DNA of 52,159 nt from Methanobrevibacter sp. GTDB lineage: Archaea; Methanobacteriota; Methanobacteria; Methanobacteriales; Methanobacteriaceae. Below, piece by piece: positions 12,552-20,586 of this stretch; position 1 is the first letter of the stretch; each line of letters begins with the position of its first letter. Location of the stretch: NCBI RefSeq assembly GCF_030539875.1, contig NZ_JAUNXI010000014.1:1-52159 (forward strand). The letters run 5' to 3'. The notes below the pieces were generated by a model. The model was given only the letters and a program-made list of their open reading frames with translations. It searched no databases and was not told the origin of the DNA. The translations under genes were made by a program, and so were the position numbers.

Positions 12552-12575
12552 TTAGGTTAACCAAAATATTTATAT
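12552..12575 (+). promoter_or_regulatory. Iron-box-like half palindrome overlapping TATA box of the microprotein gene
   Basis: TTAGGTTAACCAAA (12552-12565) contains the perfect core GGTTAACC and runs into the TATA-like AATATTTATAT at 12565-12575. The left half equals that of the TTAGG-N4-CCTAA sites seen at feoB. Overlap with the factor-B/TATA region fits repression. DtxR-family control is inferred from similarity to known iron boxes. Confidence 0.5.
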
Positions 12576-12611
12576 GTCTGTTGATGTAATATAAGAAATA
12601 GCGATAAAAAA

Positions 12612-12625
12612 TTAGGCAAACCTAA
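12612..12625 (+). promoter_or_regulatory. TTAGG-N4-CCTAA palindrome, candidate iron-regulator operator
   Basis: TTAGGCAAACCTAA sits about 37 bases after the TATA box and 147 bases before the microprotein start. It has the same arms and spacing as TTAGGTTTACCTAA at feoB. DtxR/IdeR/SirR-type iron repressors bind sites of this form. Confidence 0.55.
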
Positions 12626-12700
12626 AAATCTAATTTATTATTGCTGTTGTTAAATTAGTGTAAAATGTTCTAATTTGATGTATAATATGACTACTCTCAA

Positions 12701-12731
12701 GAAATTAAATATGATTTTCATATTTAATTTC
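12701..12731 (+). promoter_or_regulatory. Perfect 14-bp hairpin in the microprotein leader
   Basis: GAAATTAAATATGA (12701-12714) and TCATATTTAATTTC (12718-12731) are exact inverted copies with a TTT loop. It lies in the predicted 5' untranslated region, 40 bases before the start codon. It could be a leader stem, an attenuator or a protein-binding site. No T-run follows closely, so it is not a clear terminator. Confidence 0.55.
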
Positions 12732-12771
12732 AAAAATTTAAAGATTATATTTCATAATGGAGGATAAGAAA

Positions 12772-12870
12772 ATGTCAAATAAACCAAAATGTTGTTCAAC
12801 TGATACAAAGAAGAAAAAAAGCATTTTAAAAAAAATATGGTGCTTATTTTTCGGATGTAACTGTCATTAA
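12772..12870 (+). CDS. 32-residue Cys-rich microprotein, candidate iron regulon member
   Basis: A very short protein, MSNKPKCCSTDTKKKK at the start and WCLFFGCNCH at the end, 32 residues. A strong GGAGGA ribosome site lies eight bases before ATG 12772, which argues that it is translated. It has a CC pair near the start, then five lysines out of six residues in a basic middle, then a hydrophobic turn and a C-terminal CxCH that could bind metal. Its promoter holds the same palindromes as feoB. I recognise no family. Known FeoB-associated Cys-rich small proteins have an N-terminal helix and differ. Function in iron handling is inferred from regulation only. Confidence 0.6.
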   Translation: MSNKPKCCSTDTKKKKSILKKIWCLFFGCNCH

Positions 12871-12888
12871 ATACAAATTATCTTTTTT

Positions 12889-13800
12889 TTAGATTTTCGG
12901 CTCTAATTTTTTAATGAACACTCCCATAAAAATCACGACTGACGGGAAAAACAGCCCATAAATTATGAGCAATAAATCTGATGAAATTACATCTCCCATA
13001 ACTGTTGAGCCTGCCATTAGCATTATTAAACTAATCACCGGTGTTAGGATTGCAATAAATGTGTAAATTAAAATAAATGAGTTTAATTTCTGAGAATATT
13101 CTTTTAATTTAATCTGCATATCAAAAGAAATATCGCTGGCTATTATATCTAGGCTGTTGGAAAGGTTTCCGCCTACTCTTAATGTGCTGACAATCTGATG
13201 TATTGCTCTTGTAAGTCCTTCGGATTTGACTCTGCCGGACATTTCAAGCAATGAATCCTCAGTGGATTTGCCAAATTTAATTTCTTCTAAAACTCTATTG
13301 AATTCTCTTGAAAGGGATCCATAATCTGCATTTTTAATTGTTGCTAATGTATCGTGAAGACCTTTTCCGGATTTCAGTTCAATCCCAATGTGCCTTAATG
13401 CATAAGGCAGTTCCTGGTTTAAATCAGAATAACTTTGCTGCTGTCGGATTTGGGGATAATAAAAAACTAAAATATAAAGCATCAGCATTAGTGTGAAAAA
13501 TATTCCGGATAGTTCCCAACTTGCAAATAACGGTAATAATAGAGATATTATAATTATTGTTCCAATAAGTTTCTTATTTAGCAAATATGGAATTAGGAAT
13601 TCTCTTATCCTATTAATCTGATCGTCTTCGTTTTGGGACAATTTTATATCTCTTTGCAGATTTAGTTTTTCGGATATTCCTGAATTAATTTCAGGTGCTT
13701 CAAGTTCAATTTGCCTAAATGATATGTTTTTTAAAAAACTGATAAGGTTGATTGTCAGTTCTCCCACAGCTATGAAAAGTTCTTTTAAAATGGGAATCAC
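12889..13800 (-). CDS. Type II secretion F / TadC-like membrane platform protein
   Basis: A 303-residue membrane protein of the T2SF/TadC family, the inner-membrane platform that works with a secretion ATPase to build type IV-like pili. Hydrophobic pairs lie near residues 76-110 and 240-295. The conserved cytoplasmic loop has LRHIGIELKSGKGLHDTLA, and the later EGLTRAIHQIVSTLRVGGNLSNSLD. It begins with GTG exactly at the end of the ATPase gene (stop 13801-13803), so translation is coupled. No pilin or prepilin peptidase gene is adjacent. The substrate is unknown. Confidence 0.85.
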   Translation of the reverse strand: MIPILKELFIAVGELTINLISFLKNISFRQIELEAPEINSGISEKLNLQRDIKLSQNEDDQINRIREFLIPYLLNKKLIGTIIIISLLLPLFASWELSGIFFTLMLMLYILVFYYPQIRQQQSYSDLNQELPYALRHIGIELKSGKGLHDTLATIKNADYGSLSREFNRVLEEIKFGKSTEDSLLEMSGRVKSEGLTRAIHQIVSTLRVGGNLSNSLDIIASDISFDMQIKLKEYSQKLNSFILIYTFIAILTPVISLIMLMAGSTVMGDVISSDLLLIIYGLFFPSVVIFMGVFIKKLEPKI

Positions 13801-17633: not shown

Positions 17634-18125
17634 ATGAATAAGAAACAACTTATATTAATTTTAGGAATTTTAAGTGTTTGTTTTATATTGGCAGGTCCTG
17701 TTTTTGCAAAGGAGGCAGTTAAAGTAAAGATTGATACGGACCACTCTCCTTTTTTTAATAATGGCCTTATTGTGATTACTCTTGTGGACAGTCATGGCAA
17801 ACCTATTAAAAGTGACGGAACTATTCACTATAATATTACTGATGAATTTGGAAATTATAAATGGAAATACGGGCCTTATAAGAGCAAAGTCATATTAAAA
17901 TATCCTGTCGGCAAATACAAGGTTAAGGTTAAATTTGATGGGGATTCCCATTACAAAAAAGCTAAAAAAACCCAATATGTCGCTGTAGAAATGTTTGATC
18001 CTTATACTTATTATGATAACCATAACTGGGGATTAAACCAAAAAATAGATGATTATTTTGACTATACTTATTGGGATGAAGATATTTATGATGATCCATA
18101 CACTTATGATGGTGAAGGACCTTAA
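17634..18125 (+). CDS. Secreted Ig-like-fold protein
   Basis: A 163-residue exported protein. A signal peptide (KKQLILILGILSVCFILAG, cleavage near VFAK) is followed by one beta-sandwich domain, DTDHSPFFNNGLIVITL through YPVGKYKVKVKFDGDS, of the type repeated in Methanobrevibacter adhesin-like proteins. The C-terminal 40 residues are unusual: very rich in Tyr and Asp, with no anchor. It could be released or held by other means. GGGGATATC precedes ATG 17634. A hairpin terminator follows. It stands alone. Confidence 0.75.
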   Translation: MNKKQLILILGILSVCFILAGPVFAKEAVKVKIDTDHSPFFNNGLIVITLVDSHGKPIKSDGTIHYNITDEFGNYKWKYGPYKSKVILKYPVGKYKVKVKFDGDSHYKKAKKTQYVAVEMFDPYTYYDNHNWGLNQKIDDYFDYTYWDEDIYDDPYTYDGEGP

Positions 18126-18136
18126 AAAAGAGAGAT

Positions 18137-18162
18137 TTGGTGTTTGTGGTACTAAACACCAA
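18137..18162 (+). terminator. Hairpin after the secreted-protein gene
   Basis: TTGGTGTTT (18137-18145) and AAACACCAA (18154-18162) form a perfect nine-pair stem with an eight-base loop, followed by TTGACTTTTTT. It is placed 11 bases past the stop. Confidence 0.6.
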
Positions 18163-18311
18163 TTGACTTTTTTGGGAAATTATTTGGCAGATAAATTTCC
18201 TTTTTTTTTATCAAATTAGAAAAATTGTGAAAATCTAATTCAATAAGATAGTTTTTTTTTTGGAGATTATATTATTATTGGCTAATAATAATATTTGTGA
18301 CATAAGTGAAA

Positions 18312-18331
18312 AATTTAGGCATGCCTAAATT
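18312..18331 (+). promoter_or_regulatory. Perfect 20-bp palindrome, iron-box-like, upstream of feoB
   Basis: AATTTAGGCATGCCTAAATT is a full 20-base palindrome with TTAGG/CCTAA arms, about 237 bases before feoB. This is the best site in the window for a dimeric DtxR-family repressor. The region 18126-18567 otherwise holds only a terminator and promoter elements, no gene. Confidence 0.6.
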
Positions 18332-18502
18332 CTTTCTCACCAATATTGAAGTTTGTTTTCATCATATATAAATGTTTTTGAATTTTCAGATGGTTTGGTG
18401 TTATATGTCTGTACTTAACAATTGTTATTTTTTTATATTTATGTCTTTTTATTTTGGTATGACTAAATATTTAAATATGATAAAGGTAAAATAATAAAAT
18501 AT

Positions 18503-18516
18503 TTAGGTTTACCTAA
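18503..18516 (+). promoter_or_regulatory. Proximal iron-box-like palindrome of feoB
   Basis: TTAGGTTTACCTAA lies 51 bases before the feoB ATG. Upstream, ACTAAATATTTAAATATG at about 18462-18479 is the likely TATA region with a degenerate half-site before it. The palindrome is therefore near the start of transcription. Confidence 0.6.
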
Positions 18517-18567: not shown

Positions 18568-20586
18568 ATGAAAAAATTAATTGTAGGATTAGCAGGAAAC
18601 CCCAATGTGGGTAAAACTACTGTATTCAATCAATTAACTGGTATGCATCAGCATGTGGGTAATTGGCCAGGTAAAACTGTTGAAAAAGCAGAAGGTCATT
18701 TTAAACATGGGGATTATGAGTATAATCTTATTGATTTGCCGGGTAATTATGCATTAAGCGCTCACTCTATGGAGGAAATTATTTCCAGAGATTTTATTGT
18801 AGATGATGATTCTGATGTAATTGTTAATGTGGTTGACGCCACTAACTTGGAGCGTAATTTATATTTAACTATTCAAATGATGGAGTTGGGCGCTAATCTG
18901 GTCTTGGCACTTAACATGAATGACTTTGCAAGAAAAAGGGAACATATCATTGATATTGATTTAATGAATGAACTTTTGGGTTTTCCGGTTGTTGAGATTA
19001 ATGCAAAAACAGCTGACGGATTTGAGGAATTATTAACAACTGTTGAAAAAGCCGCTGAAAATCCAAGAGACTGTGCCGCCAAGTTGTCTTATGGTAATGA
19101 ATTAAAAGAACATTTGGGAGATCTTCAAAAATTAATTGAAGAAGATGAGGAGTTACTGGACGTTCCGTCTATTTGGACTGCAATCAAATTATTGGAAAAG
19201 GATTCGATTGTAATACAAAAAGTACAGCAGTCTTCTAATTCTTCCAAAATCATGACTGAAACCGATAAGGTGGCTGGCCATCTTCACACTATATTTAATG
19301 AAGGCGCCGAAGAAGTTGTTGCAAATGCAAGGTATGCATTTATCGACGGTTTAATGGCTGAAGCTGTTGAAATGCCTGCTGTTGAAAAAGAAACTGTAAC
19401 TGATAAGATTGATAAGATTGTTACAAACAGAATTTTGGCTCCGTTCATATTTGTAATTATAATGTGGGTGATGTTTCAATTAACATTTACAATAAGTGCT
19501 CCTTTTCAAACTCTTATTGAAGAAGGATTTGGAGCATTAAGCGGATTTGCCTCCTCTTTTATTGCCAATGAATATTTGTCTTCATTTGTCAGTGACGGTA
19601 TTATCGGAGGGGTAGGTGGTGTGCTTACTTTCCTGCCGGTCATTATTCTGATGTTTTTATTCTTAAGCATATTGGAAGACTGCGGTTATCTTGCAAGAGC
19701 GGCATTTACTTTGGATAAGCTCATGCATAAATTAGTTGGTCTTCACGGAAAAGCATTTATTCCAATGATTTTAGGATTTGGCTGTGGTGTGCCTGCGATA
19801 ATGGCTACTAGAACCATGGAAAATGAAGGGGACCGTATGCTTGCAATGATGCTTGTTCCGTTCATGTCATGTACTGCCAGACTGCCGATTTATGCTGTTT
19901 TTGTTGCTGCATTCTTTTCGGATATGGGAGGAAACATACTGCTTGTAATCTACTTGTTAGGTATTTTTGTTGCTCTTGTTGTTGCAGCTATTCTTAAAAG
20001 AACCATGTTTAAAGGATTGTCCACTCCTTTTGTAATGGAATTGCCAACTTATAAGGTGCCGTCTCTTAAAGGGGTAATATTGCACACCTGGGAAAAAGTA
20101 AAAGGATTCCTGAAAAAAGCAGGTACTATTATTCTCGGATGTTCCATTGTATTGTGGGCGCTATGTACTTTCCCATTAGGTGTAGAATATGGTTCTGCTG
20201 ATAGTTTACTTGGTATGATAGGTAATGTTATTGCCCCAATCTTTGCTCCGTTAGGATTCGGAACTTGGCAGGCTGCTGTTGCAATTATTGCCGGATTGGC
20301 TGCTAAAGAGGTTGTGATTTCAACATTCGGTACTCTTTCAGGTTTGGATGAAGACGATGAAAATGGTGTTGTCAGTTTAATACATGACACATTTACTCCA
20401 CTGTCTGCATTTTCATTCATGGCATTTGTATTGTTGTACGTTCCATGTTTTGCAGCTATTGGTACAATCAAGCAAGAAACAAACAGTTATAAATGGCCTT
20501 TAACTATGTGTGTTATTACCATAGTAACTGCTTATGTTGTCGCATTTTTAATTTATAATGTCGGATTTTTAATGGGATTTAGATAG
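18568..20586 (+). CDS. feoB: Ferrous iron transporter FeoB
   Basis: A 672-residue Fe(II) transporter of the cell membrane. The N-terminal G domain has G1 [17 protein letters not shown], the [13 protein letters not shown]2 region, G3 DLPGNYAL and G4 LNMNDFA. A helical insert domain (about 160-280) is followed by the membrane core with two gate repeats; [15 protein letters not shown] is well kept. Size is at the low end of normal. GGAGGATATTA before ATG 18568 is a strong ribosome site. feoA follows 142 bases later with its own promoter. Two palindromes upstream point to iron control. Confidence 0.96.

Follow-up and report, generated by a model that had tools for sequence, protein, structure and literature searches.

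The 32-residue microprotein encoded at positions 12772-12870 of the window (the whole 52,159-nucleotide stretch of Methanobrevibacter sp. DNA analysed here) probably belongs to a DtxR-type iron-box regulon whose other products include trans-acting small RNAs (sRNAs) with an iron-sparing role. From its sequence, the gene is well supported as conserved, protein-coding and located behind the same boxes as the ferrous iron transporter gene feoB. Since several species retain the RNAs and lack the microprotein, the latter appears to be an accessory part of the predicted iron regulon rather than its core. The initial annotation of this DNA had proposed that a microprotein with candidate metal ligands, sharing an operator with feoB, was an undescribed part of iron homeostasis. 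An undescribed part of a predicted iron homeostasis is indeed well supported, but the microprotein is accessory to it and the RNAs are more widely kept. That annotation had overlooked that the leader of the microprotein is itself a more conserved RNA, that the same operator also occurs at small RNAs, one of them beside feoB in the window, and that there is a further exact box at 18315. The microprotein locus comprises the following features:

12552-12565, no strand assigned: upstream operator of the microprotein, TTAGGTTAACCAAA, with 1 mismatch, just 5' of the TATA box, its position conserved across loci.
12569-12576, plus strand: TATA box TTTATATG of the microprotein transcript, recognized from sequence (transcript start at ~12598, inferred).
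12598-12756, plus strand: predicted transcribed leader RNA, with an inferred 5' end (z = -3.4 when folded together with the ORF).
12612-12625, no strand assigned: downstream operator of the microprotein, TTAGGCAAACCTAA, exact in the box scan.
12635-12731, plus strand: conserved leader RNA element, model R2 (E=6.6e-9 / 7e-10; covariation).
About 12650-12680, plus strand: hairpin of the leader element, with covariation.
12688-12700, plus strand: near-invariant leader linker ATGACTACTCTCA (model R2).
12701-12731, plus strand: 13-bp hairpin of the leader element, hardly changing (model R2).
12760-12765, plus strand: Shine-Dalgarno sequence GGAGGA, 6 bases 5' of the ATG.
12772-12870, plus strand: 32-aa Cys-rich basic microprotein (homologues, profile, substitution counts).
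12883-12891, plus strand: T run, likely a terminator, recognized from sequence.

The short frame and its strong GGAGGA site are as first described, and the translation, MSNKPKCCSTDTKKKKSILKKIWCLFFGCNCH, reads as announced, with CC near the N-terminus, a basic middle containing the Lys cluster and an FFFGCNCH end. Conservation in close relatives and a preference for synonymous changes, the two properties on which the initial annotation had made this gene depend, are both found. A profile built from 20 members has strong matches (E<1e-9) in 37 Methanobrevibacter genomes, and close pairs differ mostly at third codon positions (e.g. [1,0,10] for L016/L038), with pN/pS values of 0-0.15. Clear homologues are confined to the genus in a search of 61 relatives. 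Profile matches in other genera, at E about 1e-3, were left out of the member count, and those in genus g23 sit downstream of operator pairs. One g23 genome also contains, at ~1684-1780 of L139, a 32-residue basic CGICG frame with a TTG start, GRTKCGICGKKQIKPTKRERKRDPKVVSFRK, behind an operator pair; this CGICGK frame has no counterpart in the other fetched g23 loci. The common pattern of the family consists of CC near the start, a basic middle and then [IL]W[CT]FFFGCNC[HSK], which the M. smithii-like group replaces with the ending VFNFFFGCCKNKK; across the 37 genomes the C-terminal ends are FFGCNC[HSK] or FFGCCKNKK.

We found no Pfam, NCBIfam or PDB relative of the microprotein, and AlphaFold produced a weak model (pLDDT 62) with one short helix at residues 17-27. 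Our guess, made on composition, is that it may be a small basic partner of RNA or of the membrane with a putative four-cysteine metal site. A role as obligatory RNA chaperone was dropped, because in several species the RNAs persist although the ORF is missing. The microprotein might also act on iron traffic independently of the RNAs, as a metallothionein-like buffer or a FeoB partner. Its CC...GCNC cysteines are conserved in most members and four species keep it under the operator without the leader element, but none of the 20 members matches a Pfam family at E<=1 and several species with feoB-type boxes and sRNAs lack the microprotein, so that we consider this reading rather doubtful. FeoC and the FeoB-associated Cys-rich membrane protein are likewise small, Cys-containing and linked to feoB, whereas the microprotein has no Pfam match and its AlphaFold model predicts no helix of transmembrane length.

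The operator has the consensus TTAGG-N4-CCTAA and usually occurs as a pair ~70 bp apart around the TATA box. Both microprotein boxes lie where the initial annotation had placed them, except that the upstream one ends 3 nt before the TATA box instead of overlapping it, and the box that it had reported at feoB, TTAGGTTTACCTAA, was found at 18503. Within the window, boxes are only weakly above chance (5 at <=1 mismatch compared with 1.9 expected, with 5 of 100 shuffles reaching 5); comparative evidence settles the matter. The paired-box pattern occurs in 95 of the 139 family genomes and its reversed control in none of the 139. Nearly all the fetched microprotein loci have boxes with <=1 mismatch upstream, mostly paired, and some have extra pairs further upstream, including several tandem pairs in G010 and G033. 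The 1.82-Mb genome contains nine exact boxes, among them those of feoB, the microprotein, the window sRNA and a second sRNA locus. At L026, L027, and L028 (G000:C4), exact boxes lie near a ferredoxin-like gene adjoining a P-type ATPase, near an ABC exporter preceded by an AraC-type regulator, and 3' of the gene for an ECF-type transporter ATPase; the genes near these boxes are likely other members of the regulon. Upstream of the microprotein in L012, L014, L015, and L016 there is a triple-box arrangement with TTAGGCAYRCCAAA. In L012 and L014 it precedes a short unit resembling an RNA, with CTCC, CCTC and a terminator hairpin, which may represent another type of sRNA.

The region between the microprotein and feoB carries a second unit under the same operator:

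18124-18340, minus strand: predicted small RNA divergent from feoB, with hairpins, including one of terminator type that precedes a T run (covariance model R1, fold; 5' end inferred).
18257-18273, minus strand: unpaired sRNA seed AATATAATCTCCAAAAA, the complement of ribosome-binding sites at fdhA and fwdF (fold, target scan).
18315-18328, no strand assigned: operator of the sRNA, TTAGGCATGCCTAA, exact in the box scan.
18364-18372, minus strand: TATA box of the sRNA, recognized from sequence.
18503-18516, no strand assigned: operator of feoB, TTAGGTTTACCTAA (box scan).
18568-20586, plus strand: feoB, ferrous iron transporter (TIGR00437, 668 bits, cut-off 316).

This unannotated sRNA family came from conserved non-coding DNA between tandem operator pairs. 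Covariance model R1, built from the sequences of seven relatives, detects it in 62 of 67 genomes of the genus and in none of 72 genomes of other genera; the copy in the window matches at 18127-18287 on the minus strand (E=3.7e-14), a second copy is present on C4 of the same genome, and copies often occur in tandem. The helices covary, with 36 double-change cells, a value that none of 500 shuffles attained and that also exceeded the slid controls. The operator boxes, which lie outside the model, place the sRNA promoter under predicted iron-repressor control. They form a pair 68-73 bp apart at 38 of the 42 hits, with a TATA box between them in all 38 units, and only 5 of 774 background windows contain even one exact box. 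The window sRNA has a single good box, the second, ~70 bp upstream, being degenerate; feoB, too, has one operator instead of a pair. It folds with z = -5.3, leaving the AAUCUCCAAA stretch unpaired between two hairpins, and covariation and fold together identify it as a conserved structured RNA with an intrinsic-terminator-like end. The stand-alone family contains no ORF, and an Rfam scan of six loci yielded only two chance-level miRNA/snoRNA matches, below the gathering score. In M. smithii-type sRNAs the seed variants ACTCC or GGTCTCC allow shorter pairing. Genus g23 carries the same seed in a different scaffold behind operator pairs. Its units (L123, L125, L126, L127, L129, L134, L136, L140, and L141), with seed GCAATCTCCAAA or ACAATCTCCAAA and a hairpin and terminator that differ from those of the genus sRNA, are a diverged or parallel sRNA family.

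The unpaired C-rich seed of the sRNA is complementary to Shine-Dalgarno sites of iron-using enzymes. AAUCUCCAAA matches the ribosome-binding sites of fdhA over 14 bp, its predicted partner in the fdhA leader being UUUGGAGAUU, and of fwdF over 12 bp. The two genes are identified as formate dehydrogenase alpha (TIGR01591, 701 bits) and FwdF polyferredoxin (NF042909, 433 bits), both above cut-off. The seed complement TTTGGAGATT occurs before an ATG eight times in the genome (reversed control, 1+1), and the real gene starts among these sites are fdhA, fwdF, and one membrane protein gene. We ranked 739 starts from about 815 kb of the 1.82-Mb genome, the target contig being included on purpose. fdhA comes first both by duplex energy (-17.2; mean -6.2, sd 2.5) and by perfect match length (14 nt), fwdF fourth by energy and second by match length, and a FwdD-like gene, which scores 115 bits and thus below its cut-off, fifth by energy. 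Across species, TTTGGAGATT is kept at 28 of 30 fdhA and 27 of 28 fwdF starts; G004 keeps the sRNA and has lost the fdhA site (L224). We think it unlikely that this word owes its conservation just to selection for translation as a strong ribosome-binding site, its complementarity to the sRNA being a coincidence. It does contain GGAG at normal spacing, and part of the conserved DNA upstream of fwdF overlaps the preceding gene, but GGAG and GGTG are found in 149 and 181 of the 739 sampled starts, respectively, and the whole word in only 2; moreover, the bases further upstream of fdhA drift freely across species while the word stays.

Two other kinds of loci share the fdhA-type site. A conserved membrane protein of ~250 aa and unassigned function has an sRNA-complementary ribosome site at L184 (G000:C26:16269), L185, and L187, in the own genome, G033, and G010. 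A conserved intergenic element (L179, at G000:C7:61921, L190, L186, and L188) reproduces the exact fdhA ribosome site plus start, TTTTGGAGATTATAAAATG, followed by a frame that stops after 3-7 codons; it is a candidate target-mimic (sponge) for the sRNA, or may encode a leader peptide.

The leader RNA of the microprotein is better conserved than the microprotein itself. Model R2, from which the own sequence was left out, detects the leader element in 55 genomes, and in most species the ORF follows it directly; none of 500 shuffles showed covariation as high, and across relatives the near-invariant linker reads CATATAACTACTCTCA and is CU-rich. The RNA and the microprotein are separable, since each occurs without the other in some loci. 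The ORF is missing, but the leader RNA and both boxes remain, in G007, G013, G017, G036, G105, G124, and G125, and the loci with the element and no ORF are L151, L156, L158, L161, L169, L175, and L176, the one in G105 (L169) retaining a decayed remnant of the ORF. Conversely, the ORF stands behind one box with no leader element in L010, L011, and L013. The leader RNA thus outlives the microprotein in several lineages and, because its invariant CU-rich linker survives the loss of the ORF, it probably also acts in trans. In the DNA sampled, the linker complement TGAGAGTAGTTATATG matched only the antisense strand of the element itself, and the linker had no convincing target among the 739 sampled gene starts. 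The location of the element just before the ORF in the majority of species would suit a riboswitch or attenuator acting in cis on the microprotein only, with no trans-acting sRNA at this locus. Nevertheless, we regard this as quite improbable: at least seven loci retain the element with its operator pair in the absence of the ORF, the linker and last (3') hairpin are joined directly to the sRNA, with no ORF, in L100, L103, and L110, and a stand-alone sRNA family without ORF exists. In L151, L161, L175, and L176, from species devoid of the microprotein, the leader RNA lies ~70-180 nt upstream of the gene for an unrelated membrane-anchored protein (MNRTKRLIVAI...CAIDEGEDRPGMGACDMAF).

A single DtxR-family gene is present in the genome (PF02742, 94 bits), and its product scores 103 bits with the MntR model and 76 bits with the DtxR model, both below cut-off. 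These scores do not separate MntR from DtxR; iron is favored as the regulated metal by the presence of feoB under the operator together with predicted targets that are iron-sulfur or iron-sulfur-linked enzymes. The higher MntR score might suggest a regulon that responds through an MntR-like repressor to manganese or to metals in general, but these same two observations, and the half-sites, which resemble IdeR/DtxR boxes, make this very unlikely.

In the iron-sparing regulon that we propose, the single DtxR-family repressor would leave its boxes when iron is scarce and the sRNA and leader RNAs would accumulate. By pairing, the unpaired AAUCUCCAAA seed would then cover the Shine-Dalgarno sites of two genes, fdhA for formate dehydrogenase and fwdF for the formylmethanofuran dehydrogenase polyferredoxin, so that less protein rich in iron-sulfur clusters would be made at the same time as FeoB brings in iron. 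The archaeon would thereby spare iron, and the microprotein would be an accessory product of this response. We infer the transcription of these units, iron as their signal and the repression of the targets from the sequence. A fuller picture, with DtxR-controlled and often tandem sRNAs that would silence both formate and formylmethanofuran dehydrogenases, a dual-function RNA that also codes for the microprotein, and possibly a non-coding sponge with the fdhA-like site, is more tentative, and we give it somewhat less than even weight.

Several known systems offer functional parallels. In Staphylococcus aureus, IsrR has two Fur boxes and C-rich stretches that pair with the Shine-Dalgarno sites of Fe-S targets including fdhA (PMC9410917). 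The archaeal sRNA similarly combines two predicted iron-repressor boxes at its promoter, several stem-loops plus a terminator, and an unpaired C-rich seed matching Shine-Dalgarno sites of Fe-S enzymes, again including fdhA. By contrast, its promoter is archaeal, its boxes are of DtxR type instead of Fur, it often occurs in tandem copies, it shares its operator with a microprotein and, according to the Rfam scan, it has no detectable homology to IsrR. In Bacillus subtilis, the iron-repressed sRNA FsrA has a C-rich motif that binds Shine-Dalgarno sites and is co-regulated with the small proteins FbpA/B/C (PMC9410917), a combination also predicted here; unlike these proteins, the archaeal microprotein is Cys-rich and has no Pfam match, and since some species possess the sRNA but lack the microprotein, an obligatory chaperone role is unlikely. 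By analogy, the sRNA may work like IsrR and FsrA, a likeness of function and not homology. MrsI of Mycobacterium tuberculosis, from a different domain of life, is likewise an iron sRNA predicted to be under a DtxR-family repressor, IdeR (PMC9410917), and we found no sequence relation between the two. Trans-acting sRNAs are known in methanogens from sRNA162 of Methanosarcina mazei, a member of a different order (PMC3510493); it has not been described as iron-regulated. Our literature search, mostly among papers available without subscription, turned up neither an iron-responsive sRNA in archaea nor any description of the microprotein, and the main text of a 2021 survey of methanogen iron pathways contains neither 'DtxR' nor 'small RNA' (PMC8351635).

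The analysis provides a concrete seed and site, together with a conserved RNA family to annotate, and illustrates how evolution can join an overlooked 32-residue protein to an RNA gene and separate the two. If the proposed regulon is correct, the main methanogens of the rumen and the human gut would use RNA to attune the entry steps into methanogenesis to iron, and fdhA would be a target reached convergently in archaea and bacteria.
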